Below are positions 3,767 through 19,438 of a stretch of 53,867 nt of DNA, in pieces (the stretch's first letter is position 1; each line of letters begins with the position of its first letter). The stretch covers positions 1-53,867 of the forward strand of contig CANQPU010000013.1 of the NCBI GenBank assembly GCA_947625815.1, given 5' to 3'. The DNA comes from an uncultured Oscillospiraceae bacterium (GTDB lineage Bacteria > Bacillota > Clostridia > Oscillospirales > Oscillospiraceae). The position numbers were made by a program, and so were the translations under genes. Under the pieces are notes generated by a model. That model saw only the letters and a list, made by a program, of their open reading frames with translations, did no database searches and had not been told where the DNA came from.

Positions 3767-3790
3767 CCGATCCGCGCTTTTGACAAAGAA

Positions 3791-3840
3791 ACTCCCCCGG
3801 TCCGCGGGTTTTCCGCGGACCGGGGGAGTCGTTTTTTTCT
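3791..3840. terminator. Strong hairpin terminator shared by convergent genes
   Basis: A perfect 17-bp stem (3791-3807 with 3813-3829) has a GTTTT loop, followed on the plus strand by G and seven T residues. It ends the lspA/rluD transcript. On the minus strand it sits directly after the stop codon of the SLH protein gene, with a weaker T-rich tail. The same hairpin is repeated at 11166-11204 after the second SLH gene. Confidence 0.9.
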
Positions 3841-4386
3841 TTATTCGCCGCTGATCTGCCGGTATTTCGTCAGGACCTTGGCCAGCTCACTGCGCTGGGC
3901 CTTCCCGGCGGGATCGAAGCTCCCGTCGCCACGGCCCTCCAAAATGCCGTTCATGCCGCACCAGGCCACCGCCTCGCGGGCCCAGTCGTTCACCTTCGCG
4001 GCATCCGTAAAGGCGGACTGGAACATCCAGGCGCCGGTAAATCCGCCGCCGCCCAGCTCCTTCTCGTACCGGTAGAGCATAGTGGCCATCTGCTCCCGGG
4101 TGATCGGGTCGTCCGGCCCGAAGGCGTTGTTCCCGTAGCCGTCCACGATCCCCTCGCTGCTGGCCCAGCGGATCGCCTCCGCGTACCACGCCTCCTCCGA
4201 GACGTCGGTATAGATCATGAGGTAATCGACCACCGGCGTGCCGCTCATGTTCCACAGGACCGTCACCATCTCGGCCCGGGTGACGATGCCGTCGGGGACG
4301 AAGCTGGTGGGCGCTTTGCCGTGCATGAGGCCCTGGGTGATCACGTAGTCGGTGTAGGGGTGATACCAGGCCTTCACGTCAAGGTC
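3791..4386 (-). repeat. Direct repeat copy 1: SLH anchor coding region plus terminator
   Basis: This 596-bp stretch matches 11166-11760 in the same orientation. By eye there are four substitutions (two adjacent near 3872-3873, one at 4322, one at 4345) and one missing T in the terminator tail. It covers the terminator and the last roughly 180 codons of each SLH protein. Similarity drops abruptly at AAGGTC, so the boundary is sharp. Near-zero synonymous divergence indicates recent duplication or ongoing gene conversion. Confidence 0.95.
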
Positions 4387-7300
4387 GGTGAACCTCCTGG
4401 ACGGGCAATCCGCGCCGCCGTCGCAGGTCTTGAGCTTGAACGCGGCCTTTACCGTCACGCCGCCGGAGGGCATGGTGAAGGTGTACGTCCCGTCGCCGTT
4501 GTCGGTGACAGCCACGGCCTTGCCGCTCCGGTCGGTGACGGTGAGGGTGTCAAGCACATAGCCCTCGTCCGGCTTCACGGTGAGGGTCACCTTGCCGCCG
4601 GTCTCAGCATAGGCGGGGCTGGCGGTCACGGCGCCGTGCTCCGGCTCGGTCACGGTGGTGGAATAAGTGGAGGGAGCAGGAGGCGTATACGTCGTGCCGC
4701 GGGTGATGTTGATGGTGTAGGTTTGGGTCACACCGCTCACGGAGCAGGTAATTTCGACCCTGTTGACGCTGTTGTCAATAAGGTTAAGCTCGTATTGGGC
4801 GCTGGTCGCATTGCCGCTGATCAGGGTCTCGCCATTTAACTCAACCGTTATATTATTCACCAGCGAGGCTGTTCCCGCTGTATCGACATTGAGTGTAAGG
4901 CGCTCGACGTCGCTGCCCACAGTGGCGGTATAGGCGTCCTCCCCAGGGGTAAAGGCGATGTTCATGTCCACAGGACTGCCCGCGTTGTCAAGCTTAATGT
5001 CCTTAACGCCAGGCACTCCCTCAAAGGTAAAGGGAGAATTGCCCTCGTGGAGGTTGACGTAGGTCACGGTATTGTCATTTGCGACCTTCAAATACTGTGT
5101 ATAGATCTTTTCCACGCCGTTGCTGTCGGTATGGGTGTGCGTGGCACGGATCCATTCGCCCGGCTTGCCCATCAGATTTGTCACCGGCACAACGATGTAG
5201 GTCGCTTCGGTGCTCTCATACTCCGTCCAGCCCTCCGTGTCGCCCGGTTCCATAACGACGGCGTTCTGGGTTCCGCTTCCTCCGTCTAACCTGACAGCAT
5301 CCGGGTCTGCCGTGGTGGAGGCGACAACGCGGAACTGGTACTCAATGTCAAGCTCCAGCTTGCCGGTGTTCAGTCCAGTCTCTTCGTAGCTTGTTACCTG
5401 GATATTTGCCCTCGTCTGGATATGACGGTAAATTTCGCCGGAGGCGGTGACGCCGGCCGCCGCAAGGGTGGTTTGCAGTGCCGTCTCGTTGTACTTGGTG
5501 CCGCTGCCCTCCTGGGCGACGCGCCGGAGCATTTCTTCCTGGGCCGCCGGGGTCATTTCGATCTCAAGCTTGTTCGCATGGCTGTCATACTGGGTAGAGG
5601 TTTCAGAACTTACAACCGTTACCGAATCCCCGATGACGGTTTTGCCGGTGGCGTTTTCGATCACGAACGCGGCGCTGACATAGACCGTGGACACTCCGTC
5701 AGGCATGGAAAAGGTAAATGTGCCGTCCCCGTTTGAGGTGATCTGCTCACTGCTCAAGGAGTGCTTCGTGCCGTCCTCGTCGTAATAGTATACGGAGGGC
5801 TTCTCACCGGCCATGCTGCTGCCGGAATTGGGCGTGACGGTGACGGTGACTTCACCGCTGACGGAATAGGCGTTGTCGGTGCCGGTGATGGCATCCGCAT
5901 TATCGCCGGTGATCGACACGGTGCCACCGGTGGAAGGCTCCACATAGACGACGCCGTTGACAGTGACGGTGACGCTGGCGGTCTTGGTTCCGTCATAGTC
6001 AGACGTGCAGGTGACTGTGGCGGCGCCGGTCTTAAGGCCGGTGATCACGCCGTTATCCACGCTGACGATGTCCTCTTTCCCTGCTTCTACTGACCAGGTG
6101 ACGGCCTTGTTGGCCACGGTGTCCGGGGTGAAGACGGGCGTAACTGTGGCGGTGCCGTTTACGTGGAGGGAGACCTCCGTCTGATCAAGAGCCAAGTCTT
6201 CGAGGTTCGCGGAGACGGTAGCCTTCAGCGCGTTTGATCCAATGGTAAAGGAGCTGAGCTTCGCCTGTACGTCTTTGGCGGCCTGGAGCATATCGGTCAG
6301 GGTCATGTTTTCGCCGCCGTATTTGTTGAACCACGTTTCATCGTAGGCCAGCAGATAGCGAATGAACTCGTCGGCGGTGAAGTCGGCCTTATCGGTTTCC
6401 GTTCCCTTGCTTGCATCGTGGGCCTGAGTGAAATCCATGTGACCGGTGACGGTCACGCCGGTGCCGTTGATCTCGCCGGTGAAGCCGTCCACCGCCTTGG
6501 TGGGGATCTCAATGCTCATCTCACCGGAGCTGTATTCATCCCAGTCAAAGTCGATGGTGAACTCCTTGGCGCCCTCAAGCTTGGCATTGATCGTATAGGA
6601 GCCGTCCTCGTTTTTCGTCCCGTTGGCCTTATCGGACGTAAGGGCCACCTCATCGATCTCTATGCCGGTGATCTTCAAGGACGCGCTTCTGATGGTGATG
6701 GTGGTATAACCATCCTCGTCCGCCGCGGGAACGAGGTGGTCGTCCAGCTTCACGTCCACATCAAGATCCGCGAAACTCGCGTTATCTACGGTCTTGAAAT
6801 AGGCGCTGCCCCTTCCCCAAGGCATATCTGAGGAGCTGAACAGGTCGGAGAATTGAAGCTTCACATCATACGTGATCAACCTGTCCACGCCGGTGATAAC
6901 GGTTTCGGTTGTAAAGTATTCGGTGGTCTTCTGGGAGAGCTGTACGCCATAAGTATTGCTATCGCCATTTATGCTGTATGTCTTGAGCAGCGGCACATCG
7001 GGAATGGTGGACGGGTCGGCGGCGGTCAGGGTGGGGAGCTCCTTCCAGTCCGCCTTAAGGGTCGTGGCGGCGCTGGGGGTATACTCGCCGTAGAGGGTAT
7101 CGACCGCGACATCCTCCTGTCCGTCAACCTTCCAGCCATTGAACTCGTAGTACTTGCCGTCATTGCCTATCGCCACAAAGCTCACCACGGGATAAAATAC
7201 CTCATTTGTTGTGGCCTGTGTATATGGGTCCATAGACAGATTTCGGTGCTGGGCCAGATGAGGCAGCGCGACACTTTCGCCCTGCATGACACTGACAGTC

Positions 7301-8034
7301 AGATTGCTCAGATCTACTTTATTTGCCTCCGCGGTTTCATCCAAAGTCTTGTCAGTAAAATACCCATAAGTATAAAACTTCGGGTCATCGCCTTCCTGCT
7401 TAATGAGGTTCAGATAACTCTCATCTTGAGGCACGGTGAAATAACTTAAGGAGTACGGCGCTTCCCATGGGCCGTATCTATCATTTAATTCATACTTTGC
7501 GATAACAGGATAAACCTTGGTCACGCCCTCCGGGCCGGAGAAATCATAGGTAACAACAACTTGCTCTACTTTCTTATAAATGAGGGAAATAACAATACGA
7601 TTTTTGTTATTACCCGTATTCTCTTGGTCGCCCTCAGTAAAGGTGTGCGTTATGACATTGCCATTATCTTCAAATTTTATGATGTCCTCTCCAGTGGCAG
7701 ATTCACTAATCTTCCGATTACTCCCTTTGAAGACAACGCCATAACAGACGTAAAAATCACCATTTGCTTCCAAGGTATCTGTCGGCCTGTGAACGGTCAC
7801 CTTACCGTTTGTCATCTCCGACCGATCGACAATACCATAAGTTTCATTAGTAAAAGCGTTGTAAAAACCCGCATCATCTTTTAATTCCGTGAAAGTACTA
7901 TTTTCATATGTATAACAAGAGCCTGAAATATTTTTTATTTCAATCGCTTCCTCCGCATACACGACAGTCGGAACGAGTGCAAGCAACAGCAAAAGCGATA
8001 GCATCAACGCCATTGGTTTCTTAAATATGCGCAT
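3841..8034 (-). CDS. Large secreted cell-surface protein with three SLH domains
   Basis: The predicted 1397-aa protein starts with a signal peptide (MRIFKKPMALMLSLLLLL, cleavage near VVYA). The ATG at 8034 is chosen because AGGTGG-like GGAGG lies 5 bases upstream and the signal peptide begins there, although the frame extends 19 codons further. Visible domains are: an InlB-like region near residues 280-350; a Big_2 bacterial Ig-like domain (about 615-698) with the VTWSVEAG core; a cadherin-like beta-sandwich domain (about 1015-1118); a flexible repeat (about 1125-1195); and three SLH repeats (about 1215-1397) that should bind pyruvylated secondary cell-wall polymer. It probably forms an operon with the GLUG protein upstream and so lies under the invertible promoter. 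The 5' part is A/T-richer than the housekeeping genes. Adhesion or coat function is inference. Confidence 0.9.
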   Translation of the reverse strand: MRIFKKPMALMLSLLLLLALVPTVVYAEEAIEIKNISGSCYTYENSTFTELKDDAGFYNAFTNETYGIVDRSEMTNGKVTVHRPTDTLEANGDFYVCYGVVFKGSNRKISESATGEDIIKFEDNGNVITHTFTEGDQENTGNNKNRIVISLIYKKVEQVVVTYDFSGPEGVTKVYPVIAKYELNDRYGPWEAPYSLSYFTVPQDESYLNLIKQEGDDPKFYTYGYFTDKTLDETAEANKVDLSNLTVSVMQGESVALPHLAQHRNLSMDPYTQATTNEVFYPVVSFVAIGNDGKYYEFNGWKVDGQEDVAVDTLYGEYTPSAATTLKADWKELPTLTAADPSTIPDVPLLKTYSINGDSNTYGVQLSQKTTEYFTTETVITGVDRLITYDVKLQFSDLFSSSDMPWGRGSAYFKTVDNASFADLDVDVKLDDHLVPAADEDGYTTITIRSASLKITGIEIDEVALTSDKANGTKNEDGSYTINAKLEGAKEFTIDFDWDEYSSGEMSIEIPTKAVDGFTGEINGTGVTVTGHMDFTQAHDASKGTETDKADFTADEFIRYLLAYDETWFNKYGGENMTLTDMLQAAKDVQAKLSSFTIGSNALKATVSANLEDLALDQTEVSLHVNGTATVTPVFTPDTVANKAVTWSVEAGKEDIVSVDNGVITGLKTGAATVTCTSDYDGTKTASVTVTVNGVVYVEPSTGGTVSITGDNADAITGTDNAYSVSGEVTVTVTPNSGSSMAGEKPSVYYYDEDGTKHSLSSEQITSNGDGTFTFSMPDGVSTVYVSAAFVIENATGKTVIGDSVTVVSSETSTQYDSHANKLEIEMTPAAQEEMLRRVAQEGSGTKYNETALQTTLAAAGVTASGEIYRHIQTRANIQVTSYEETGLNTGKLELDIEYQFRVVASTTADPDAVRLDGGSGTQNAVVMEPGDTEGWTEYESTEATYIVVPVTNLMGKPGEWIRATHTHTDSNGVEKIYTQYLKVANDNTVTYVNLHEGNSPFTFEGVPGVKDIKLDNAGSPVDMNIAFTPGEDAYTATVGSDVERLTLNVDTAGTASLVNNITVELNGETLISGNATSAQYELNLIDNSVNRVEITCSVSGVTQTYTINITRGTTYTPPAPSTYSTTVTEPEHGAVTASPAYAETGGKVTLTVKPDEGYVLDTLTVTDRSGKAVAVTDNGDGTYTFTMPSGGVTVKAAFKLKTCDGGADCPSRRFTDLDVKAWYHPYTDYVITQGLMHGKAPTSFVPDGIVTRAEMVTVLWNMSGTPVVDYLMIYTDVSEEAWYAEAIRWASSEGIVDGYGNNAFGPDDPITREQMATMLYRYEKELGGGGFTGAWMFQSAFTDAAKVNDWAREAVAWCGMNGILEGRGDGSFDPAGKAQRSELAKVLTKYRQISGE

Positions 8035-8060
8035 AAAAACCTCCACATATACTATTACTA

Positions 8061-8096
8061 TTGCGATGGCATCATTTTTAGATGATGCCATCGCAA
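8061..8096. other. Long perfect hairpin between the two surface-protein genes
   Basis: A 15-bp perfect stem (8061-8075 with 8082-8096) has a 6-base loop and lies in the 74-bp gap between the GLUG protein stop and the SLH protein start. On the minus strand no T-run follows it, so it is not a typical terminator. It probably acts as an mRNA stability or processing structure, or attenuates expression of the distal gene. Confidence 0.7.
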
Positions 8097-8108
8097 TGAA
8101 ATCAAAGT

Positions 8109-9812
8109 CTACTCATCGGATGACGTGGCATCGAAATTAAAATAGACTGCCTGAGTAAAAGTTGAATCGGCTAAATCGTCCGCCAAATTCCAATATTTCT
8201 CATTAAAGCCTAGATCAGCAGCAGCATCACCTGTGGAACTGTTGGCGTTCCATATGCAATCCGTTATTGGCCTACTCTGCGGATTTCGCCCATAAATTTC
8301 ACCGCATGTTGTCCAACAGTGAGTAACATTACTGGCCTCCAACGGAGTTGCTACAATTCCGCCGTTATAAAGGAACGCGCCCAAATCCTCGTCGCTTTCT
8401 ATTGTATAACAGTCGCTAATATCACTGTACGACTGGGCGGCGATGCCTCCGGCGTTGACAAGTCCATTCACAGCGGTGTTGGATACCGAGCAGTATTTAA
8501 TGATCGTTATGAAGGTGAATCCCACAAGTCCGCCGGCGTTCCGTCCGTTAACGGTGCTGTTGGTGACTTGAACGTTCTGGATAAGCGGGCGCTGCGCTGT
8601 CGGCGTGTCTCCGCTGTTGGCGGAAATGGAGCCAGCCAGAACGCCCGCGTTCTGGGCGTACTGCACCGTAATGTGGTCAAGGTTCAGGTTCGCGATGATC
8701 TGTCCCTGCCCGATTTCAGCAAACATGCCGGCGTTGTCTCCACTGGGTGCGAAGATAGCCCCGGTGATCGTTTTGCCGCCGCCGTCAAAGTTGCCCTTGT
8801 AGGAAATGGCCGTAAAGGTCCTGTTCTCGTCCGTGTAACCGGAAAAGTCGAGGCTCGTGCCAAGCACGACCCTTCTCCCGGCGTCCACGACGCTCGCCTG
8901 ACTTGCGAAAGTCCTGAAATCCTGTTCGTCCTCAATGGTGACGACCATTTGGGTCTGATCCGCAAGTGCCTTGGCGAAATCGTCCTCCGTAGTGGACGTA
9001 TACAGCGCGTACACGGTCATATCGCCGGTGACAGTGTAATTTGCGGGGACTTCTGTTGTGTAAGACGGATCCTCATACCAGCCTTCAAACCTAAGTGTAT
9101 CAAAGGTTGGCGCCTCCGGGAATGTGATGGTGGAACCCTTGGGCGTTTTCCACACATATGTCTCGCCGTTGCACTCATAGGTAACATTGACGATCTCCAC
9201 ACCGGGGCCGCCCTCGCGCATATAGACGTTGAAGTTATCGGTGTTGAGGATTATGTTGTTGATGAGGCTCGGCTCGCCGGTCGTCTGGGATACGGCGGAA
9301 CCGGCCGGGATCACCACGGGATTATAAAGGTTATGCGCCACCGTGAATAGATTTCCGCCCAGATACTCGAGCGCTTGAGTGCTGCCGGACCACATGATAT
9401 GATCGGTTGTAGTCATTTCAAGACTGTAATCCTCATCGTTGAAGTTAATCGTTCCCGTGACAATGTTCAGGTTCAGGAAAACGCTGTTGCCTTCAACGGA
9501 TGACACGTACATGGCTCCCCTCGGTACATCGGGGCCGGGGTTATAAATGCCATCGGCCTCCGTAAGGTCCGGGGATACCACAAAGTCTACGGTCTCATTG
9601 AAGGTCACAGTAAAAGTGAGTCCCGCAATGGACGTATCGCCCGGAACGACCATTATGCCGTTCTCAGACTCCGATGTGCTGTATAGTACGTCGTCAACTG
9701 TGATTGAGAAATTCGCTACATAAGGCCCCGTTCCCTCCTGTGCCAGCGCCGCCGGCGCCAGCGTCAGCAGCATGGCAACCGCCAGTACCGCTGAAAAGAT
9801 CTTGCGTTTCAT
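8109..9812 (-). CDS. Secreted GLUG/InlB-repeat surface protein
   Basis: The 567-aa product has a clear signal peptide (MKRKIFSAVLAVAMLL, cleavage after ALA) and no SLH, LPxTG or transmembrane anchor. Residues about 207-270 form an InlB-type beta-grasp repeat, recognised by FEGWYEDPSY and the following TVYALY. Residues about 327-494 look like a right-handed beta-helix of GLUG-type repeats (NFDGGGKTITG, NAGGLVGF, NAGGIAAQS). The ATG at 9812 is preceded by CAGGAGG at 5-base spacing. It is the first gene after the invertible segment and probably shares a transcript with the SLH protein downstream, which might tether it. Its ligand is unknown. Confidence 0.88.
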   Translation of the reverse strand: MKRKIFSAVLAVAMLLTLAPAALAQEGTGPYVANFSITVDDVLYSTSESENGIMVVPGDTSIAGLTFTVTFNETVDFVVSPDLTEADGIYNPGPDVPRGAMYVSSVEGNSVFLNLNIVTGTINFNDEDYSLEMTTTDHIMWSGSTQALEYLGGNLFTVAHNLYNPVVIPAGSAVSQTTGEPSLINNIILNTDNFNVYMREGGPGVEIVNVTYECNGETYVWKTPKGSTITFPEAPTFDTLRFEGWYEDPSYTTEVPANYTVTGDMTVYALYTSTTEDDFAKALADQTQMVVTIEDEQDFRTFASQASVVDAGRRVVLGTSLDFSGYTDENRTFTAISYKGNFDGGGKTITGAIFAPSGDNAGMFAEIGQGQIIANLNLDHITVQYAQNAGVLAGSISANSGDTPTAQRPLIQNVQVTNSTVNGRNAGGLVGFTFITIIKYCSVSNTAVNGLVNAGGIAAQSYSDISDCYTIESDEDLGAFLYNGGIVATPLEASNVTHCWTTCGEIYGRNPQSRPITDCIWNANSSTGDAAADLGFNEKYWNLADDLADSTFTQAVYFNFDATSSDE

Positions 9813-9897
9813 AAAACTACCTCCTGTTCATTCATAATAGAAATCCAAGGAAATACATGTTCGTCTGCGGCCCGCAATCCTCCTTCCTCAAGGCCGT

Positions 9898-9915
9898 TTA
9901 GGACAAAATTTATCT
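9898..9915 (+). repeat. Left inverted repeat of the switch
   Basis: TTAGGACAAAATTTATCT is the exact reverse complement of 10139-10156. Two mismatches and a further matching TGT follow on the inner side. The outer flanks do not match. A perfect 18-bp pair across 223 bp is not expected by chance. Confidence 0.92.
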
Positions 9916-9934
9916 TCTGTCCCGTTCGTCCAAC

Positions 9935-9943
9935 AGTATAGCA
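9935..9943 (-). promoter_or_regulatory. Possible weak extended -10 promoter facing the surface operon
   Basis: On the minus strand TGC-TATACT (9943-9935) fits an extended -10 element, but no good -35 lies 16-18 bases upstream. It might give basal expression of the GLUG gene in the present orientation. A similar extended -10, TGA-TACAAT, faces right at 10130-10138. Confidence 0.4.
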
Positions 9944-10057
9944 CTTGGCGCTGTCGAAAAAGCGCGAACGGGGGCATTTTTGGACACAGCAATCAGGACC
10001 GGCAAATATTTTTGTTTTGCGGTCCTGGTTGTTGTGCAAATTTTTTGTAATATGTGC

Positions 10058-10086
10058 TTTACATTTCCAATCTGACGTGATAAAAT
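10058..10086 (+). promoter_or_regulatory. Strong sigma-A promoter inside the switch, facing right
   Basis: TTTACA (10058-10063), a 17-base spacer and TAAAAT (10081-10086), with TGA just before the -10 (extended -10). A short stem (CGGGCA/TGCCCG, 10097-10112) lies at the predicted transcript start. In this orientation the transcript would run through the right repeat, antisense to the recombinase. After inversion it would drive the surface operon. Confidence 0.8.
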
Positions 10087-10138
10087 CTGTCTATATCGGG
10101 CAACGGTGCCCGCGCTTGGGTTTTATGTATGATACAAT

Positions 10139-10156
10139 AGATAAATTTTGTCCTAA
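10139..10156 (-). repeat. Right inverted repeat of the switch, overlapping the recombinase stop codon
   Basis: AGATAAATTTTGTCCTAA contains the TAG stop codon of the recombinase (10153-10155 on the minus strand) plus one base of its last sense codon. Both repeats carry the same bases, so crossover within them leaves the recombinase reading frame intact in either orientation. Confidence 0.92.
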
Positions 10157-10989
10157 CTCACAAGCCCCAGCCGGTCAAGCACCTTGGCGTGTTCCGCGCC
10201 GGTGGAAATGAGGTAGATCCGGGTGGTCTCGATGGAGCTGTGACCCAGGACGTCCGCAAGCTTTGCGATGTCGCGGGTAACGCGGTAGAACATCCGGGCG
10301 AACAGATGACGCAGATTGTGGGGGTAGACCTTTCGCGGGTCTACCCCCGCTTTTTTGCACACGGACTTCATCTCCGCCCAGATCTGCCCGCGGGTCAGGG
10401 GCTTGCCTTTGGCCGTGAGGAACAGCGCCCCGGAGGTGATCTTCTGCTGTCCGGCGTACTTGAGAAGCTTCCGGCACAGCTTGCCCGGGAGCATGATGAC
10501 CCGGATCTTCCCCTTGAGGGAGATCTGCGTCCGGCCCTCCCGCGCCGCCTCCACGGTGATATACTGGACCTCGCTGACCCGGATGCCGGTGGAGCAGATG
10601 GTCTCCATTAAGAGCGCCAGCCGGGGCTTGCCGCCGGCGGCGGCCAGGAGGCGGTCGTATTCCTCCCGCGTCAGCTCCCGGCTCTGATCCCGAAACACCC
10701 GCCGCTGGAGCCGCAGGGCACGGACCCGGCAATCCTCCCGGCCCAAAAACCGCAGGAGGGCGTTCACTGACGCCACCATGGAATTGACCGTGGTGGGGGC
10801 GTAGCCTTGCGTCACCAGCCCGTCCCGCCACGCGGCCACGGCGTCCTTTGTGACGGGCGCGCCGCCCATGTGCGCGGCAAAGCATAACGCGTCCCGGAGA
10901 TACTTCTCCACCGTCCCCGCGCTCTTTTCCTCCTGCCGCAGATAGGCGGCGAAAAGCTGTAAGTGTTCCTTTTGCATGATTTGTTCCAT
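10153..10989 (-). CDS. Tyrosine recombinase, predicted invertase of the adjacent switch
   Basis: The 278-aa product has an N-terminal SAM-like core-binding domain (about residues 5-85) and a C-terminal catalytic domain. The full tyrosine-recombinase set is visible: Arg in STGIRVSE, Lys in LKGKIRV, H-x-x-R in HNLRHLF, His in LGHSS, and nucleophile Tyr in TTRIYL. The ATG at 10989 has AGGAGG 8 bases upstream; a second Met lies 4 codons in. It has no linked excisionase, phage or conjugation genes. It touches the inverted repeat at its 3' end, so its likely job is to invert the 9898-10156 segment. A generic XerC/D-like role is less likely because the protein is short and not in a xer context. Confidence 0.9.
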   Translation of the reverse strand: MEQIMQKEHLQLFAAYLRQEEKSAGTVEKYLRDALCFAAHMGGAPVTKDAVAAWRDGLVTQGYAPTTVNSMVASVNALLRFLGREDCRVRALRLQRRVFRDQSRELTREEYDRLLAAAGGKPRLALLMETICSTGIRVSEVQYITVEAAREGRTQISLKGKIRVIMLPGKLCRKLLKYAGQQKITSGALFLTAKGKPLTRGQIWAEMKSVCKKAGVDPRKVYPHNLRHLFARMFYRVTRDIAKLADVLGHSSIETTRIYLISTGAEHAKVLDRLGLVS

Positions 10990-11004
10990 GACCGCGTCCT
11001 CCTG

Positions 11005-11029
11005 TAAAATAGGTAATGACCTTATTTTA
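11005..11029. promoter_or_regulatory. Imperfect palindrome over the recombinase promoter/leader
   Basis: TAAAATAGGT and ACCTTATTTTA form an inverted repeat with one bulged A and a 4-base centre, directly upstream of the ribosome site. On the minus strand the outer arm contains TAAAAT, which could serve as the -10. It looks like an operator for autoregulation or a protein-binding site, but no binding protein can be named. Confidence 0.5.
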
Positions 11030-11165
11030 CCCGAAAAGACGCAAAATTTACCTGCCGTCGGCGGGGCCGCCGTCGGAGCGCAATGGGCTTGTTCCGGAAG
11101 GGTGCAGCGGGTCCACGTACTCCTTAATGCGCATCTGATCTGCCAGCCCGGCCTCTCACAAAAAA

Positions 11166-11212
11166 ACTCCCCCGGTCCGCGGGTTTTCCGCGGACCGGGG
11201 GAGTCGTTTTTT
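11166..11212. terminator. Duplicate hairpin terminator after the giant SLH gene
   Basis: The stem 11166-11182 with 11188-11204 is identical to that at 3791-3829, and is followed on the plus strand by six T residues. On the minus strand the stem is followed by six T residues (11161-11166 complement), giving a proper terminator for the giant gene just after its stop. Confidence 0.88.
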
Positions 11213-11760
11213 CTTTATTCGCCGCTGATCTGCCGGTATTTCGTCAAAACCTTGGCCAGCTCACTGCGCTGGGCCTTCCCGGCGGGATCGAAGCTCCCGT
11301 CGCCACGGCCCTCCAAAATGCCGTTCATGCCGCACCAGGCCACCGCCTCGCGGGCCCAGTCGTTCACCTTCGCGGCATCCGTAAAGGCGGACTGGAACAT
11401 CCAGGCGCCGGTAAATCCGCCGCCGCCCAGCTCCTTCTCGTACCGGTAGAGCATAGTGGCCATCTGCTCCCGGGTGATCGGGTCGTCCGGCCCGAAGGCG
11501 TTGTTCCCGTAGCCGTCCACGATCCCCTCGCTGCTGGCCCAGCGGATCGCCTCCGCGTACCACGCCTCCTCCGAGACGTCGGTATAGATCATGAGGTAAT
11601 CGACCACCGGCGTGCCGCTCATGTTCCACAGGACCGTCACCATCTCGGCCCGGGTGACGATGCCGTCGGGGACGAAGCTGGTGGGCGCTTTGCCGCGCAT
11701 GAGGCCCTGGGTGATCACATAGTCGGTGTAGGGGTGATACCAGGCCTTCACGTCAAGGTC
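11166..11760 (-). repeat. Direct repeat copy 2: SLH anchor coding region plus terminator
   Basis: This is the partner of 3791-4386, in the same orientation and 7.4 kb away. The two copies flank the invertible switch, the recombinase and most of the first SLH gene. Similarity between the proteins continues more weakly upstream into a shared GRSG...VAVTDNGDGTY repeat domain. Confidence 0.95.
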
Positions 11761-14700
11761 CGGGTAGGCCTGGGACGGGCACGTCTCAAACTCCGCGTTC
11801 ACGGTCACGTCCTCGGCGGGCATGATAAAGCTGTATGTGCCGTCGCCGTTGTCCGTCACCGCCACCGTTCCGCCGCTTCTGCCGGTGACGCTCAGCGTCT
11901 TCAGGTCATAGCCCTTCCCGGGCTTGACCGTGAGGATCATGCGGCTCCCTCTCAGCGCGTAGCTCCGGTCGGAGGTCACCTCTCCCTTGGCCGTCGCCTC
12001 CGGGAGCACTACCCGGTGGGTCCCCTGGTCCTCGCCGCTGTCCTGATACCAGGTCAGCACGTAGGTGGAGTAATATCTGGCGTGGAGCACTAAGGCCGCG
12101 CCGTCGGAGATCACCTCCAGATACTCCCCGTCCGCGTTCTCCTGGGTGGTGATGGTGTGCATCTCTATCTCCGTCTCGCCGGTCGCGGGGTCGCTGACCT
12201 CATGGAACCGGTAGATCGTGTAGCTCGTCTTCCCCTGCAGCTCCGGAGGCAGGTGGATCACGGTGGGGATGGGATTTTGGGTGTCGTGGATCTCAGTTCG
12301 ATTGGATGTCCCCCTCCGCTCCGTCACGGTCTTTGTGAGGCCCAGATCCAGCACCATGCCGATCCGGTCCTGGGACACGGGGATCTCGGGGGCGTCGGCG
12401 GGCGCGGTCCCGTTTTCAATGCTCATCCGGAACTCCACCGTTCCGCCGTCCGCCACCGTGGCCGCGTCCGCGGCGGTGTAGATCTCGCCGTCCACCTGGG
12501 CCGTGAGGCTCTCGATACCCGCCACCGCGGTGATGCCGGAGGCCACCTCCACCACGGTATTCAGGGCGCCGTCGGGCAGGATGTATTCGCCCGTCACGTT
12601 TTCGTCCGTTATCTCCACCAGGAAGGTCTTGACGATCTCGGCGGAGCCGTCGTGATAGCGGATCACCAGGTTGTAGAGCCCGGGCGTCAGGTACTCAAAG
12701 CTGAACCGGCCGTCGCTGTCGGTGTCAGCCTCCGCCACGTCCTCCGCGCCCTGCGTCAGGGTCACGTCGGCGCCGTGGACGGGCGCGCTCCCCTGCATTA
12801 CCCGGCCGCCCACGCTGTATGTGTTCTCGATATCCAGCCACAGGGCCTTGAAGATCACGTCGGCGGCCGGCATGTGGAATTCCTCGTTGGGCTGATAGGT
12901 GATGCCGCCGTAGCTCCAGCCTCTGAAGAGGCTGCCCGGACGGGTCATGTCGTAGGACGTGCCGTCCGCGTTCCGGCCGGAGATCGCCGGGAGGATCACC
13001 GTCTGATTGGCGAAGAGGCCCTCCAGGGCCGCGGGCCCGACGCCGCCCTCATAATCGGGATCGAAGACGACGGTGTGGGTCTGGATGCTCTCCGGGTCGT
13101 CGGTGAGCACCAGCTCGCCCACCAGGTGGAAGTCGCCGTCCCCGGTGGCGGCGTGCCGGTAGTTTCCGTTGCCGATCTTCACCCAGATCTCATATTCGCC
13201 CGCCTCGGAGGGGGCCGCGTCAAGGATCTGCTCGTTCTGCCTGTACTGGATCTCCACGGCCAGGTCGCTCAGCGTGATCCTGGTCCCGGCGGCGGGATAG
13301 CTTTCGTGCACGGCCGTGTCGGGCGTGGTGGCCACCTCGCCCCAGGCCGCCCGGAGCGTCACGCTGTCGGGCAGGTCGTCCGTGATGTCCCAAATGTTGT
13401 CGCCCACGGTAAAGGTCACAGGCGCCGCGACGATGTTCATCGTCTCGGTATCGTCCTCCACGGTGTAGTTGCCGGCGCGGGTGCCGTAGAGGCTCACCGT
13501 CACCTGATATTCTCCCACGTCGGAGCCGTCGGTCACGGCGTAGGCCAGCAGGGTGCCGCGATAGGCCGCGGGACCGCCCGCGGGCACGGTGGGCGTATCG
13601 TCCCGGTCGTCGTGGAAGGCGTTGAGGACGCTGACGTTGGGGTGCATGGGGTGCGCGTGGTAGACGTAGTTCAGGTGGGACCAGCTCACGCGCACCGCGT
13701 AGGGCTCCACCGTGATCTCGCCGATCTTCAGGGTGCGCGCCTCGCCCTGGCCGCTGAAAACATAGTTGTAAATACCGTCCTCCGTGGGAGTGAGGGTCAC
13801 CCAGATCTCATAGGTCCCCGCGTCGCGGATCTCCAAGATCGGGTCCTCGGTCACGCTGTCTCCATTGGCGTCCTTTACCCGCTTATAGGTGACGGTGAAG
13901 CCGTTGGTCTCCCCGGCCGCGATGGCGGTCGCCTCGCCGGAGGTCTGCGCCACGTTGGCGGTGTGGGTGTAGCTGTCGTAGGTCATGGTCAGCGCGATAT
14001 CCGTCCAGACCTCGGGGGTGGAGTCCGCCGCGACGGTGTAGCCCGTGGGGTTGGGGTCTTCGTTCGTCTCGCCCCTGGCTTCCCATTCCTCCTTGACCTC
14101 GCTGCCCACGGTGAAGCTCACCGGGGCCGGGGCGATGGTGTATGCCTGCGTCCCGGCGTCGGGCAGGGTGTAGTTGACCGGATCGGTCAGGGCCGCCCGG
14201 GCGGTGTAGGACCCGGCGTCGGTCTTGTCGCCGTCGGTGACGGTGACTTCGCAGGGGTGTCCCTCCACCTGGTTCGTCACCTCGGCGGTGACGCTGACGG
14301 GTCGGCCGGAGTAGGTGGCGGTGAAATCCCCGCCGCCGTTCAGCTTCCACTCAAGCGTTACCTCAAGTTTGCCGATTTTTGCGGAGGTAGGCTGATTTTT
14401 CAGCTCCGTCGTGGTCAGCTCATAGTTGTCGCCCCAGCTGCCGGTCAGGGTAATTCTTGTGACGTTGACGGCCTTGCTCTCCCCGGCGGTGCAGTCCACG
14501 AAGTTGAAGATCCCCTCCGCCTCGGGCGACTCCTCCAGCACCGCGCCGGTGAGCGTGACGGTCCCCGTGGTGGCCGTTTCGCCGTTGAACGCTTCGATGT
14601 CCGCCACGGTCCCCACCGCGGGCGTCAGCTTCGCCTTTTTGACGGTGATGGTGACGGTCGTGCTCAAGGTCGTTTCAACAAAGTTTTTCTTGTCGTTGAC

Positions 14701-17700
14701 GGTGGGCGTGAATTTCACGGTGTACGGGGTCGTCCCGCTGTCCGTTTTAACGGTGGGGTGCGTCGCGTCGGGCGTCCCGTCCCACGACCAGGTGCCCTCA
14801 ATTTGAATATCGGTGCCCTGGATCTTGGCGGCGCCGTCAAGCGTGCTGGCGCTCAGCGCGTCGCCGTAGGTGATGTCGGAGCCGGAGACCTCAAGGGTCA
14901 GCGAAACCGTTTTGATGGTCAGCTTCCCGGTCAGCTTTTCCTCGCGGGTCCCGTCGCCCTGATTCTTGAATTTGAAATTGTCGTTACTGAGCTTCACCCA
15001 GATGTCGTAGGTGCCGGCGTCGGTCTTATTTGCGGCGCCGCCGGTGCTGTCGGAGCTCTCACTGTCGGTGTAGACTACGGTGTAACCGTCTTCAGGTATG
15101 GTTACCTCATCCGCGTTCTGCGTCACCGTGGCTGTGTGGGCCTGGGTGTCGTAATCGACGCTGTTATTCGTCACCGTGAAGCTCACGGGGGCCTTGGCGA
15201 TGGTGACCGTCACGTGAGTCTTGGCGCTGTCGTTGTGGTTGTTGTCGCCCTGGACATAGTACCACACGTAGTACGTCCTGGCGTCGGTCCCGGTGGGGAT
15301 ATTGGCGCTGAACGCATCCTCCCCCGGCGCACTGCTCTCGCTATCGCCCAGCGCGTACATCATCGTACCGTCCTCGGTGCTGCCCGCTTCCACCAGCGCC
15401 TGCGGATTGCCCGTGTAGGTGAGGCTATTCGTCGTCGGCGCAGTAACTGTAACATCTATCTTTTTGATGGTGACAGCCTGTGTGGGATCGTCCGGAAGCT
15501 TGTAGTTGTCCTTGGCCGCGCCGGTGAGCTCGGTGGCCGTGGCGGTGTAGCTCCCGGCGTTCGTGGCGGTGGCGTCATACGGGCCGGCGCCGGCGCCGGT
15601 GTTGGGCTTCACCTCCACCTTCACTTCAACAACGTCGCTGTTTTTCTTGTTGGTGACCGTCGCTGTGACGGTGTGGGGGCCGCCGGTGTAGTCGATTTCA
15701 AACGTGGTGTCACTGTCCAGCTTCCACTCAAGTTTGACCTCCAGCGGACGGATGGTGACGCTCCCCGAAAGCGACTTGCCGCTTTCGCTTCCCGCAACGC
15801 TGTAATACTTCGCGTCGCCGTCGTCATTGATGCTTACCTCGGTAAGATCGACCTTATCATACGTGTCCGCGTTCGCGCTGGTCAGATTGCCGGTGGCGGT
15901 GAGGGTCACGCTGTCGCCCGTCACCAGGTTGTCGGGCGAAAGGCTGACCTCGACTTTTGTTGTGCCGTCATAGTCCCTGCTTATCGCGGTGACGGTGTAG
16001 GTGAGGGTCCTGGGCGTTACGGTCACGGTCGCCGTGCCGGTGCTGCCGCTGATGTTGCCGTTCCCGGCATACTGGGCGGTGACCTGGGTGGCGCTGCCAC
16101 TGCCAAACAGGGCCTGCTGCTTGGCTCGATCTGTGCCTGGGATCGTCAGCGTCCATGTGCCGTTGTTATCCGGTGTTCCGGCGCCGAGGGGGGTGCCCCC
16201 CGCATTGAAGTTCACCGTGCCGGTGATGTTGCCTTTTTCCTCAACACCGACAGAATCCACCGTCGCCGTCAGCGTAATGTCGCTGCCGTAGGTGGGGGTA
16301 TCGCCGGCGGACACCGTCACCGTGGACCCGGCGCTGTTGATGGTATAGGTCTGCTCCGCGTTTTTCAGCGTATAGTTGTTCGCGCGTTCACCTTCAATCG
16401 TCGCCGTGGCGGTATATGCCTCGGTTTTCGCGGCGGTCGCTTGGCCGCCGGTGACTTTGACGGTGACATTCTCCTCATCGCCGCTCGCGATCTGGCCTTC
16501 GGCGAGGCTGGCGGTGACGTTATGGGCGTTGCCGTCGTATGTAATATTGAAGGTATCCCCCTCGTCGAGCTTCCACGTCAGCGTGACCTCTTTTTTCCCG
16601 ATCTCAACGGTGATGCTTTGGGGCGTGGTGTCGTTGTGGTTCGTGTCACCCGCGACGTAATACCAGACCGTATATGTTCCGGCGTCCTTGCCGGTAATAT
16701 CGGTGTAATCATCTTTCCACGCTACATCGCCATCGGGCTGGGCCGAATTGTCCTTCTCGCCCACATAATACTTCATATCGCCGCCGGTGGCGGTGCCTGT
16801 GGTCTGGATAAGCCCCTGCTCCGAGCCGGAGTAGACAAGGTCGCTCATGCCTGTGGGCTGGGCCGCGCTGCTGCCGGCCTTGACGATCTCCACCGTAACG
16901 TCGGTCGGATCTTTGGCCGTATAGTACTTGGCGTGGTCTCCTTTCAATGTGACGGTCACAGTGACCTTTATGCCTGTGCCCACGTTCACGCTCTCAGCTT
17001 CGGCGGTGAAATCGGCCTGCACGTCTGTGTCGCCGGACACAAGACCCTCAGGCTCACTCAGGGTGCCTTTGACAGTTTGCGTCTCATCGTAGGTCTTTGT
17101 TTCCGGCGTAAACGTGAACGTCAGTGTCTTTTTCTGTACGGTCACGGGCTTTTCTGCGCTGGTCGTCTCGGCGATATTGGTATCTCCGCTGTATGTGGCG
17201 GTAATGTTGCGGTTTACGCCGGTCTCCCCGAACAGGGCGTGCTGCAAACTCGTATCGTTGGCGCCGATCGTAAGCGTCGCCGTGCCGCCCGTAACGGTTT
17301 GCGCGGTGCCGATATCAACGCCGTCCACTTTAAATTGCACCGTGCCGGTGAAGTTGCCGGAAGGAATGCTGCCGGAGTTCACCGTGGCGGTCAGGGTGAC
17401 CTGGTCGCCGTAGGTGGGGCTTTCCTTGTCCACATCCACCGTCACCGTGGGCGTGGCCGGGGTGATGGTATAGGAGTGCATGGAATTCTCCAGATTGTAG
17501 TTCTCCGTGCCCGTACCCTGAAGGGTAGCCGTAGCCGTATAGGTGGAACCATCGGACTTCACGTTAGTCTCTTGGCCACCGGAGACGGAGACGGTAACTT
17601 CATCGCCACCCACGATCGCGCCTTCGGGGAGGGTGGCGGTGACATTCTTTGAATTGCCGTCGTAGACCAGGTCACCGTCGTCCCACGTCAGCGTCACGGG

Positions 17701-19215
17701 CTTTGGCGCGATTTTGACCTCAATGTTTTGGGGCGTGGTGTCGCTGTGGTTCTCGTCGCCCACGACCTTATACCAGACCGTGTAAGACGTGGCGTCCTTG
17801 CCGGTGGGGACGACTTCGCTGTACTCACCGTCTTGTGTAGTGCTGTATTCAAAGTGTCCGCCATTGGGCGTGCCGCCGGTCACAAGCGGCTGCTCCGATC
17901 CGTTATAGGTCGGGTTTGCGGACGTGGGCGCAGCCGTTGCAACGGCCGCGGTCTTATTGATCGTCAGCGCGTTCTCGAATGTCTTTTTGGCGCCGTCGGA
18001 ACTACCGTCAATCGTAAAGTTTTTCTGGCCGTCAACGGTCAGCTCCACGATCACGTCATAGGTGCCGGCGCTGGCCGGGGTTTCCAGCTCGTCGCCCGAA
18101 CCGTCGTGCAGCTTGTATTTGACGGTGTAATTCCCCGCGTCCGCCGTTTTGCTTTCGCCGTATGTCGCCGTCACGGTGGCTTGGATGTTGGAATCTCCAA
18201 AATTAAAGGTGCCGCCGGTCACTTCCACGGTAAGCGTCGCCTTGGCGATCGTGATGTTGGGAATCTGCACGGGGGTGCTGTCCGCGTAGTTGGTGTCGGT
18301 CGCCACGGCCTTGTACCACACGGAATATGTGCCGGCGTCGGTCTTTGTGGGCGCCGTTGTAGAATAACTGCCGGTTTGCTCTTCGCTGTACTGGAACTCG
18401 CCGTTGTCTGGAGCTGTACCGCCGGTCACCAGCGCTTGCGCCTCGCCATTGTAAGTAAGGTCTGACGCGGCTTGGGGCGGGGTATCCACGGTAAGCGTGG
18501 CCGGGGCGATCGTGACCGTGCCCGCCTTTGTTGCAGGCACATCCGCGTAGGTCGCGCTGCCGGTGGCCTTATAGTAGATGTCGTAAGTACCGGCATTTTG
18601 GGCGGTGACATCCTCATGGCTGGTTTTCCAGTCGCCGTCATTCGGCTCCGTAGCGGTTGTTACGGCCGCGTACTGAACCGTACCGTCATAGCCATTCGTA
18701 TCCACGCTCTGGATCAACTGCTGCGGGGAACCGTTATACGTCAAAGCGCCGGCCGGCGTGACGTTGATCGTTGGCGTCGGCTTGCTGCCGTTGTTAACGG
18801 TGAGCGAGTAGTATTCAGGACTATCAGCAGCTGTTACGCACAGATAAAGGGTCACGCTGGACGCGCCGCCAAAAGAAATGGTGACTTCCTCGGCCGTGAT
18901 CGGAGTGCCGCCGCTTTCTATTGATCCGCTGTCTAGGCTGTATTTCACTGTTTCTTCGCCTGTTACGGTGGCTTGGATCGTAAAGCTCTCGACATACTTC
19001 GTCAGCGTTTTCGCCTCAAGCTGCACCGCCGCATCTGCGCTCTCCCCACCTGGCTCGGTAAGCTGAATAGCAGGGATCTCGCTCCCCTCCGCAGTCAGTG
19101 TCAAAGTCACTCCGTCGGCCGCCGCCACAGACAGCGCCGTCTCGGGCGCCAGGGCGAGCACCATGCACGCGGCCATGACAAAGGACAGGATTCTTTTCAC
19201 ACTCAGCTTTTTCAT
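11215..19215 (-). CDS. Giant Ig-like/MBG-repeat surface protein with three SLH domains
   Basis: The predicted 2666-aa protein begins with a signal peptide (MKKLSVKRILSFVMAACMV, cleavage near SVAAA). The ATG at 19215 has GGAGG 7 bases upstream and is preferred over the 50-codon upstream extension of the frame. Residues about 170-1990 are tandem beta-sandwich repeats: MBG/YDG-like modules (LTYNGxxQxLV ... DAGTYxVWYK) alternating with Ig-like group 3 modules (PTYGDQVTLTATV). Residues about 2045-2125 resemble an InlB repeat. Residues about 2133-2205 form a carboxypeptidase-regulatory-like domain (GGRVMQGSAPV). The three SLH repeats occupy about 2480-2666 and are nearly identical to those of the first SLH protein. 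It is a rod-like adhesin or coat component by architecture. The ligand is unknown. Confidence 0.9.
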   Translation of the reverse strand: MKKLSVKRILSFVMAACMVLALAPETALSVAAADGVTLTLTAEGSEIPAIQLTEPGGESADAAVQLEAKTLTKYVESFTIQATVTGEETVKYSLDSGSIESGGTPITAEEVTISFGGASSVTLYLCVTAADSPEYYSLTVNNGSKPTPTINVTPAGALTYNGSPQQLIQSVDTNGYDGTVQYAAVTTATEPNDGDWKTSHEDVTAQNAGTYDIYYKATGSATYADVPATKAGTVTIAPATLTVDTPPQAASDLTYNGEAQALVTGGTAPDNGEFQYSEEQTGSYSTTAPTKTDAGTYSVWYKAVATDTNYADSTPVQIPNITIAKATLTVEVTGGTFNFGDSNIQATVTATYGESKTADAGNYTVKYKLHDGSGDELETPASAGTYDVIVELTVDGQKNFTIDGSSDGAKKTFENALTINKTAAVATAAPTSANPTYNGSEQPLVTGGTPNGGHFEYSTTQDGEYSEVVPTGKDATSYTVWYKVVGDENHSDTTPQNIEVKIAPKPVTLTWDDGDLVYDGNSKNVTATLPEGAIVGGDEVTVSVSGGQETNVKSDGSTYTATATLQGTGTENYNLENSMHSYTITPATPTVTVDVDKESPTYGDQVTLTATVNSGSIPSGNFTGTVQFKVDGVDIGTAQTVTGGTATLTIGANDTSLQHALFGETGVNRNITATYSGDTNIAETTSAEKPVTVQKKTLTFTFTPETKTYDETQTVKGTLSEPEGLVSGDTDVQADFTAEAESVNVGTGIKVTVTVTLKGDHAKYYTAKDPTDVTVEIVKAGSSAAQPTGMSDLVYSGSEQGLIQTTGTATGGDMKYYVGEKDNSAQPDGDVAWKDDYTDITGKDAGTYTVWYYVAGDTNHNDTTPQSITVEIGKKEVTLTWKLDEGDTFNITYDGNAHNVTASLAEGQIASGDEENVTVKVTGGQATAAKTEAYTATATIEGERANNYTLKNAEQTYTINSAGSTVTVSAGDTPTYGSDITLTATVDSVGVEEKGNITGTVNFNAGGTPLGAGTPDNNGTWTLTIPGTDRAKQQALFGSGSATQVTAQYAGNGNISGSTGTATVTVTPRTLTYTVTAISRDYDGTTKVEVSLSPDNLVTGDSVTLTATGNLTSANADTYDKVDLTEVSINDDGDAKYYSVAGSESGKSLSGSVTIRPLEVKLEWKLDSDTTFEIDYTGGPHTVTATVTNKKNSDVVEVKVEVKPNTGAGAGPYDATATNAGSYTATATELTGAAKDNYKLPDDPTQAVTIKKIDVTVTAPTTNSLTYTGNPQALVEAGSTEDGTMMYALGDSESSAPGEDAFSANIPTGTDARTYYVWYYVQGDNNHNDSAKTHVTVTIAKAPVSFTVTNNSVDYDTQAHTATVTQNADEVTIPEDGYTVVYTDSESSDSTGGAANKTDAGTYDIWVKLSNDNFKFKNQGDGTREEKLTGKLTIKTVSLTLEVSGSDITYGDALSASTLDGAAKIQGTDIQIEGTWSWDGTPDATHPTVKTDSGTTPYTVKFTPTVNDKKNFVETTLSTTVTITVKKAKLTPAVGTVADIEAFNGETATTGTVTLTGAVLEESPEAEGIFNFVDCTAGESKAVNVTRITLTGSWGDNYELTTTELKNQPTSAKIGKLEVTLEWKLNGGGDFTATYSGRPVSVTAEVTNQVEGHPCEVTVTDGDKTDAGSYTARAALTDPVNYTLPDAGTQAYTIAPAPVSFTVGSEVKEEWEARGETNEDPNPTGYTVAADSTPEVWTDIALTMTYDSYTHTANVAQTSGEATAIAAGETNGFTVTYKRVKDANGDSVTEDPILEIRDAGTYEIWVTLTPTEDGIYNYVFSGQGEARTLKIGEITVEPYAVRVSWSHLNYVYHAHPMHPNVSVLNAFHDDRDDTPTVPAGGPAAYRGTLLAYAVTDGSDVGEYQVTVSLYGTRAGNYTVEDDTETMNIVAAPVTFTVGDNIWDITDDLPDSVTLRAAWGEVATTPDTAVHESYPAAGTRITLSDLAVEIQYRQNEQILDAAPSEAGEYEIWVKIGNGNYRHAATGDGDFHLVGELVLTDDPESIQTHTVVFDPDYEGGVGPAALEGLFANQTVILPAISGRNADGTSYDMTRPGSLFRGWSYGGITYQPNEEFHMPAADVIFKALWLDIENTYSVGGRVMQGSAPVHGADVTLTQGAEDVAEADTDSDGRFSFEYLTPGLYNLVIRYHDGSAEIVKTFLVEITDENVTGEYILPDGALNTVVEVASGITAVAGIESLTAQVDGEIYTAADAATVADGGTVEFRMSIENGTAPADAPEIPVSQDRIGMVLDLGLTKTVTERRGTSNRTEIHDTQNPIPTVIHLPPELQGKTSYTIYRFHEVSDPATGETEIEMHTITTQENADGEYLEVISDGAALVLHARYYSTYVLTWYQDSGEDQGTHRVVLPEATAKGEVTSDRSYALRGSRMILTVKPGKGYDLKTLSVTGRSGGTVAVTDNGDGTYSFIMPAEDVTVNAEFETCPSQAYPDLDVKAWYHPYTDYVITQGLMRGKAPTSFVPDGIVTRAEMVTVLWNMSGTPVVDYLMIYTDVSEEAWYAEAIRWASSEGIVDGYGNNAFGPDDPITREQMATMLYRYEKELGGGGFTGAWMFQSAFTDAAKVNDWAREAVAWCGMNGILEGRGDGSFDPAGKAQRSELAKVLTKYRQISGE

Positions 19216-19438
19216 GGAAAAACCTCCGATCTTGTCTCCATAGGATCGCTCATGTCCGCCGGAGCGGACATGATTCGACAAAACGTCGAGCTGCTTTGCC
19301 GCGGAGCCCGTCCGGAAAGGGGCCCGCGGATACATTGATACATATACATTATAATACAACTTCAAAAAAATGGCGTTCTTTTTTGTGCGCTAAAACGTCT
19401 CATTTGGGGTAATCAAACGGGACGCAAGAAAAAGAGAG
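19216..19438. promoter_or_regulatory. Divergent upstream region of the giant gene and the two-component operon
   Basis: On the minus strand an A/T-rich patch (19337-19367) with TATAAT probably carries the promoter of the giant gene, leaving a leader of about 120 bases. That leader holds a perfect 9-bp hairpin (19251-19259 with 19264-19272) and a small CGAC/GTCG hairpin. Two copies of AAAACGTC (near 19278 and 19393) might be regulator half-sites. No inverted repeat matching the switch is present. Confidence 0.45.

Follow-up and report, generated by a model that had tools for sequence, protein, structure and literature searches.

Gut invertons, as they are known from PhaseFinder and Jiang 2019, reportedly consist of short inverted repeats that flank a promoter near surface genes, often in the vicinity of an invertase gene. 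In the accessible part of PMC11892184, inverton group 139 (33 invertons, 32 of them from Clostridia) is tied to tyrosine invertase group 35, and a quoted member of this group spans 257 bp by its coordinates. According to the accessible part of PMC5903667, signalling and chemotaxis genes, not surface genes, are the commonest neighbors of invertible sites in Clostridia, so that a family of switches beside surface genes, such as the one described here, would not be the rule in this group. In C. difficile, short inverted repeats are located upstream of the surface protein gene cwpV and the DNA is flipped by a tyrosine recombinase (PMC2784873, in part), and pdcB has an invertible promoter (PMC9286219, in part); both arrangements resemble the one described here. 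In C. difficile, the recombinase RecV serves both cwpV and the flagellar switch from a distance (excerpts of PMC5903667 and PMC2784873). In the fim system of E. coli (fimE – fimS – fimA), the recombinase gene adjoins the invertible element of 314 bp and is co-oriented with it (PMC9993118, in part), which is also the arrangement found here.

The window, i.e., the whole stretch of 53,867 bases that was analyzed, very probably contains a self-contained phase switch, in which an adjacent recombinase flips a 259-bp promoter segment and an antisense terminator stops the transcript of the OFF state. The features of the locus are as follows:

11215–19365, minus strand: large upstream SLH gene
11165–11205, minus strand: terminator-like hairpin between the upstream SLH gene and the recombinase gene, near-identical to the one at 3790–3830
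10153–10989, minus strand: tyrosine recombinase, 278 amino acids, intact frame (integrase domains, structural homologue)
10318–10356, plus strand: intrinsic-terminator-like hairpin HP1 (14 pairs, T6), antisense in the recombinase gene (z −6.8, shuffles)
10139–10156, minus strand: recombinase-side inverted-repeat arm, overlapping the recombinase stop codon
10058–10086, plus strand: predicted invertible promoter TTTACA-17-TAAAAT with extended −10 box (consensus match and conservation)
9985–10047, plus strand: hairpin with T-run behind the promoter, within the segment (z −5.3, conserved in relatives)
9898–9915, plus strand: gene-side inverted-repeat arm, 18 bp perfect, extending to 9920 at 91%
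8109–9812, minus strand: secreted GLUG/Listeria-Bacteroides repeat protein, first gene of the operon (ribosome site 9820–9825)
3841–8091, minus strand: SLH surface protein, second gene of the operon (likely start ATG 8034 after GGAGG, by eye)
3790–3830, minus strand: strong terminator-like hairpin at the end of the operon

The recombinase (10153–10989) would bind the two dyad sites that end the segment and exchange strands within their 7–8 bp centers. In the OFF state, which is the orientation as drawn, transcription from the promoter would run into the recombinase gene from its 3′ end until halted by the antisense terminator located there. In the ON state, the GLUG–SLH operon would be transcribed from the promoter, its mRNA starting with a leader of about 150 nt, and the hairpin behind the promoter would close off transcripts of the recombinase gene. 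The cells of a population would differ in the GLUG–SLH pair of surface proteins.

On the minus strand, the order of elements is SLH gene, hairpin, recombinase gene, segment, GLUG gene, SLH gene, and hairpin. The first-pass annotation of this DNA had named a complete tyrosine recombinase on one side of the segment and a GLUG exoprotein gene followed by an SLH gene on the other side, and all three were recovered. The recombinase has an intact frame of 278 amino acids with matches to both integrase domains and aligns to a XerC-like protein of known structure over residues 5–268; the GLUG and SLH genes occupy 8109–9812 and 3841–8091, respectively. The positions assigned by eye to R, K, HxxR, H, and Y are presumably those of the catalytic residues. 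A putative signal peptide (by eye) and an AGGAGG ribosome site were found for the GLUG gene. The recombinase gene is adjacent to the switched gene and co-oriented with it, and it is probably transcribed on its own, because it is preceded by the hairpin at 11165–11205. An identity as housekeeping XerC or XerD was rejected, since the scores (98.4 and 107.5 bits) are far under the curated equivalog cut-offs (335.15 and 329.6, respectively). An Rfam search gave no match within 8000–11500. The near-palindrome TAAAATAAGGTCATTACCTATTTTA (window 11005–11029), located between the upstream hairpin and the ribosome site of the recombinase gene, could be an operator. Between the GLUG and SLH genes (window 8060–8097), there is a 16-bp perfect hairpin without a T-run, a possible processing or attenuation element.

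The locus has one recombinase; five other matches in the genome are 29–31% identical and lie on other contigs, and a single such module was found in this genome. When the genome was searched for the recombination site, only the two arms fitted exactly, and two further sites appeared at three mismatches, versus three in a reversed-pattern control. An action on several distant elements in the manner of RecV was rejected, because extra sites were no commoner than in the control; action on sites unlike the arms would be compatible with this search.

The perfect 18-bp inverted repeat (9898–9915 and 10139–10156) enclosing 223 bp, which had been noticed from the sequence before, was confirmed, and the whole segment spans 259 bp (10156–9898). 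The description of the region as non-coding holds in part: the right arm covers the recombinase stop codon (10153–10155), so the repeat is partly coding. Since the outer letters are identical in the other arm, the end of the recombinase gene would stay intact upon inversion. Over 23 nt (9898–9920 and 10134–10156), the arms are 91% complementary. The repeat flanking this short segment exceeds chance. Among the perfect inverted repeats of the entire window with 20–400 nt between their arms, it ranks first in length, and Markov simulations of the 348-bp intergenic stretch reached 14 bp in 2 of 3000 runs and 16 bp in none of the 3000. By analogy to the relatives, the crossover center is predicted to be TTTATCT (9909–9915 and 10139–10145); the centers of the two arms are identical in 7 of 8 nt.

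The near-consensus promoter with extended −10 box was found where it had been proposed, on the plus strand at 10058–10086 (TTTACA, 17 bp, TAAAAT, with TG ahead of the −10 box). Four promoter-like matches were present in 3 kb with 1.2 expected, so that a single match is weak evidence; the window promoter coincides with a well-conserved stretch when 18 hand-picked related segments are aligned. With the promoter on the plus strand and aimed at the end of the recombinase gene, the surface operon is in the OFF state in the orientation shown. This agrees with the earlier reading that the promoter points away from the surface genes and that inversion would yield a leader of about 150 bases, as the start after inversion would lie near 9961 by arithmetic. 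The promoter, whose activity is predicted, can face the downstream gene from within the segment.

In the 18 segments (of 20 listed) that were aligned on the promoter strand, a hairpin with a T-run is located immediately behind the promoter. Its cells were paired in 75.4% of cases versus 34–45% when the pairing was slid, and 24 cells had changed on both sides compared with 13.3 for the shuffles, 1 of 500 of which reached this value, with no excess in doubly changed pairs (7 vs. 6.8) or in further pair types (20 vs. 24.2) in the same segments. After inversion to ON, this hairpin could end transcripts of the recombinase gene ahead of the promoter; in the OFF orientation, the T-run belongs to the other strand. 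A noisy scan of the OFF orientation revealed no terminator on the strand of the segment that runs from the recombinase gene to the surface gene, and the OFF state may therefore leak.

It is very unlikely that the locus is the remnant of a former switch that is now locked in the window organism. A sequence alone cannot prove activity, and a single such module was found in the genome; however, the recombinase frame is intact, the arms are perfect over 18 bp including the center, and the promoter and both hairpins are present. The recombinase and promoter of the window are presumably active, and the transcript ends given here are predictions.

The order of recombinase, repeat, and promoter recurs in many modules of related genomes. 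Within the genus, 32 of 34 genomes had a match at E ≤ 0.001, a count that also covers distant recombinases, and at least 20 of the 34 matched at ≥40% identity among the matches listed. The genus set comprised 76 places among the matches listed plus the window (77; short fragments left out, and the broken genes G019:C92 and G009:C105 each taken as one contig span). G024 contributed 16 of these places and G018 contributed 15. Of the 65 genus modules (counting the window) with a stop codon and no less than 330 nt of sequence after it, 63 have a repeat that starts next to the end of the recombinase gene; all 64 genus repeats found span 188–344 bp. Of 250 sampled genomes of the family, 66 had a match at ≤1e-40, covering 42 of 106 genera. 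Outside the genus, the best 80 places were taken (fragments and one with an in-frame stop left out), and the repeat was found in 58 of 69 modules with enough sequence, spanning 222–417 bp. No repeat was detected in 13 of the 134 testable modules under the settings used. The 32 loci named by sequence are mostly from Oscillospiraceae MAGs, a few being labeled Clostridia, and include Pseudoflavonifractor sp. An85 and Candidatus Oscillibacter excrementavium. In Pusillibacter faecalis MM59, the recombinase gene, a 20-bp repeat, and an SLH gene are arranged in the order of the window. The MM59 plasmid pMM59_01 (L256; 504 kb, typed as conjugative) holds a cassette with an SLH gene, and such switches may thus move between strains.

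Generic integrase profiles match the recombinase, as they would for a prophage or plasmid integrase whose repeat is an attachment site or a terminator artefact. This origin is extremely improbable, though: all 128 of 128 matched phage records remained below 60% identity, and a single one of 521 plasmid records reached 60%, namely a 504-kb replicon with the same recombinase–repeat–SLH order. Moreover, the gene order recurs next to surface genes. In the viral contigs scanned for the promoter core, no copy was detected.

A comparison of related genomes for a flipped segment had been suggested as a check on the first-pass annotation, and homologous segments were indeed found in both orientations. 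Assigned by promoter direction, 47 genus segments were OFF, 10 ON, and 7 unassigned (n = 64), and 23 segments from other genera were OFF, 16 ON, and 19 unassigned (n = 58); these calls rest on the promoter consensus, describe the orientation in the assemblies, and, coming from related modules, should not be read as independent. Among 2016 pairs of genus segments, 20 matched at >65% only when one was reversed and 84 only in the same sense. In the clearest case, L095 and L099 from one genome, the segments are 97% identical when flipped versus 47% unflipped (downstream flank 93%, recombinase DNA 94%). The segments of L124 and L125, which are opposite in orientation, are 79% versus 49% identical. 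The inner half-sites are exchanged in L095/L099 and L146/L147 and the outer half-sites unmoved in L124/L125, a pattern pointing to strand exchange in the center of the repeat in these relatives. The 8-nt center is the same in both arms of 55 of the 60 modules with a full center, the window being one of the five exceptions; in 3 of 64 modules, no half-site was recognized. Between modules, the center is shared in 7.7% of comparisons, with 26 distinct centers. As the modules were selected for a repeat, the match within pairs is partly built in, and the spread between modules is the informative part.

In 9 of 153 modules with a stop codon, the contig ends within 30 nt after the recombinase stop, L091, L105, L219, and L248 being among those that end exactly at the dyad end. 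Contig ends at the arms are expected if the reads hold both orientations; near-identical paralogues could also cause them. The parts of the cassette, their conservation, the two orientations, and the position of the crossover can be followed in the aligned relatives, which, judged from these alignments, underwent inversion in the past and occur in both orientations. By analogy to the relatives, the segment would also invert in the window organism, giving a heterogeneous surface coat. For L120/L123 versus L147, the downstream flanks are 95% identical, the segments 92–93% when flipped, and the recombinase DNA 64%; cassettes may exchange recombinases.

The downstream gene was named for 56 genus modules, with a preference for ribosome sites and hydrophobic starts that biases the set towards secreted proteins. 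By a pilin motif, 24 of the 56 were set apart, and all 24 match the Pfam prokaryotic N-terminal methylation motif. Their starts are shared and the remainder is divergent; 11 of the 24 are from G018. The pilin-like cassettes in L110–L147 (e.g., L128, L129, L132, L133, and L136 in one genome) suggest a switchable pilin repertoire. Of the other 32 genes, 31 were scanned (the long L113 protein was left out), with SLH domains in 13 and Ig-like, cadherin-like, or repeat domains in others; there were also one DegT-type aminotransferase, one Wzz protein, and one protein with the methylation motif. Some of these genes do not encode surface proteins, e.g., a helicase. For the most part, the genes downstream of the switches encode SLH or secreted proteins or are pilin-like. 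The gene right after the segment in L102 and L107 is a frame of 279–282 amino acids with approximately 32% identity to the recombinase, which hints at a recombinase cascade. Since some genomes hold many copies of this compact cassette of recombinase, flipping promoter, and surface gene, one lineage could show many coats.

What appears new in this family is a terminator-like hairpin antisense in the recombinase gene, which shows compensatory changes in relatives, is rare in controls, and is absent in some members. In the window, HP1 is located 198 nt from the gene end and is predicted to end an OFF-state transcript of approximately 264 nt. It exceeded 200 dinucleotide shuffles (z −6.8), and none of 1000 synonymous-codon shuffles was as strong. 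An antisense terminator-like hairpin of ≤−12 kcal/mol is present in 71 of 73 genus genes, compared with 17 of 73 on the sense strand. In a panel of 35 of these 73 genes, chosen to avoid near-duplicates, at most 3 of 60 synonymous shuffles per gene were as strong in 26 genes for the antisense strand and in 5 for the sense strand. For the controls, the corresponding values on the antisense strand were 1 of 15 for distant tyrosine recombinases and 2 of 29 for other ORFs; on the sense strand, they were 2 of 15 and 5 of 29. Outside the genus, the antisense counts were 37 of 58 modules with a repeat and 14 of 22 without a repeat in view, and the sense counts were 6 and 2, respectively; contig ends truncate some of the 22.

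The commoner antisense hairpin, HP2, ends approximately 287 nt from the recombinase gene end. In 39 genus rows, its cells were paired in 90.4% of cases versus 40–52% when slid. For 80 distinct versions out of 93 rows, 87% were paired versus 82% in shuffles, and 47 cells were doubly changed versus 12 (0 of 500 as high); the shuffles ignore relatedness among the sequences, and these values are not probabilities. Among the genes that keep 13 or more HP2 pairs (n = 74), lysine in the T-tail is encoded by AAA 99 times and by AAG 36 times, compared with 466 and 805 times in the remainder of these genes. Of the 93 rows, 74 form at least 13 of the 15 pairs, and 13 form no more than 11. HP2 is lost or weakened in the window (7/15), L072 (9/15), and L090 (9/15), and these three have the strongest hairpins at 198 nt. 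L114, also among the 13 HP2-poor rows, has a weaker hairpin at this position, and no strong substitute was found for L108, L213, L218, L219, L228, and L229, which lost HP2. Across 39 relatives, HP1 showed no covariation: pairing was 67.9%, and its number of doubly changed pairs was matched in 388 of 500 shuffles. Covariation thus supports HP2 only, and the support for the window's own hairpin comes from the shuffle tests.

Below about 57% identity, HP2 is mostly gone, and some of these relatives have hairpins elsewhere. The recombinase gene of P. faecalis MM59 has HP2 (0 of 200 shuffles as strong); in Monoglobus, the antisense terminator was not beyond chance (94 of 200 shuffles as strong). 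Tandem hairpins, at about 198 and 287 nt, occur in a number of modules. In many, not all, pilin-linked recombinase genes, the antisense terminator is located about 50 nt from the gene end; the two divergent recombinase classes place it differently (approximately 198/287 nt vs. 50 nt). Some members with a repeat have no strong antisense terminator. Overall, the antisense terminator in the recombinase gene seems to have been kept by evolution, and its function is predicted.

With regard to this function, the chances are about even that the hairpin serves only as a shield, blocking read-through of the recombinase gene and its promoter. The recombinase would then stay expressed, the cell could switch back, and no regulatory antisense RNA would be involved. 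The window's repeat arm abuts the stop codon, so that a fixed stop signal is hardly possible outside the gene, and the tandem hairpins look as if halting transcription mattered. A shield leaves the lean towards OFF in the genus assemblies (47 of 57 assigned) unexplained; assembly choice or shared ancestry may account for it, and the lean is weaker in other genera (23 OFF vs. 16 ON). A state-dependent feedback would explain such a lean, and we consider it possible with a probability clearly below one half. The OFF-state RNA, antisense to the recombinase 3′ end, would lower the recombinase level and stabilize OFF; in the ON state, without this RNA and with the mRNA end defined by the hairpin behind the promoter, ON would decay faster. 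The promoter–hairpin core and the antisense terminator are both conserved, both recombinase classes have antisense terminators despite their different places, and recombinase mRNA ends that depend on the orientation have a precedent in fim (PMC9993118, in part). On the other hand, the orientation seen in an assembly says little about switching bias, an antisense RNA at the 3′ end need not reduce expression, and repeat-bearing members without a strong antisense terminator exist. Tentatively, and with a greater chance of being wrong than right, the phase switch may have two outputs: the OFF promoter would make the antisense RNA of approximately 264 nt, recombinase expression would depend on the state of the switch, and a family of up to 16 cassettes per genome would control the repertoires of S-layer proteins, pilins, and other surface components, each cassette being an independent switch that biases itself.

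The first-pass annotation had compared the switch with clostridial systems in general. This likeness calls for caution: pdcB and the fim switch of E. coli are closer than cwpV, the inverted DNA of which is without a promoter and which does not have recV nearby (PMC2784873, in part), whereas the modules described here have their own adjacent recombinase. Group 139 of PMC11892184 may already include some loci of the window family; in contrast to this family, the accessible part of that paper describes no antisense terminator for gut invertons. A literature search, with most subscription papers outside its scope and others seen in part, yielded no antisense terminator in an invertase gene and no mention of the window family by name, which does not prove novelty. 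The fim element combines the promoter of surface genes with a terminator acting on the recombinase mRNA (PMC9993118, in part); the window segment has a promoter and, behind it, the hairpin with a T-run as a putative terminator. The fim terminator is Rho-dependent (accessible part of PMC9993118), and fim uses two recombinase genes and host factors, whereas the window family usually has one recombinase per module and many modules in some genomes. Unlike in this family, no antisense terminator beyond chance was detected in fimB and fimE (152 of 200 and 71 of 200 synonymous shuffles as strong, respectively). Provided that the antisense terminator functions as proposed, the standing question of how a switch sets its own ON/OFF bias becomes accessible to tests in a simple system. 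The window switch works most like fim and belongs to the broad group of invertible-promoter switches; it is distinct from fim in that each cassette has a dedicated recombinase, in how many cassettes occur, and in the antisense terminator.
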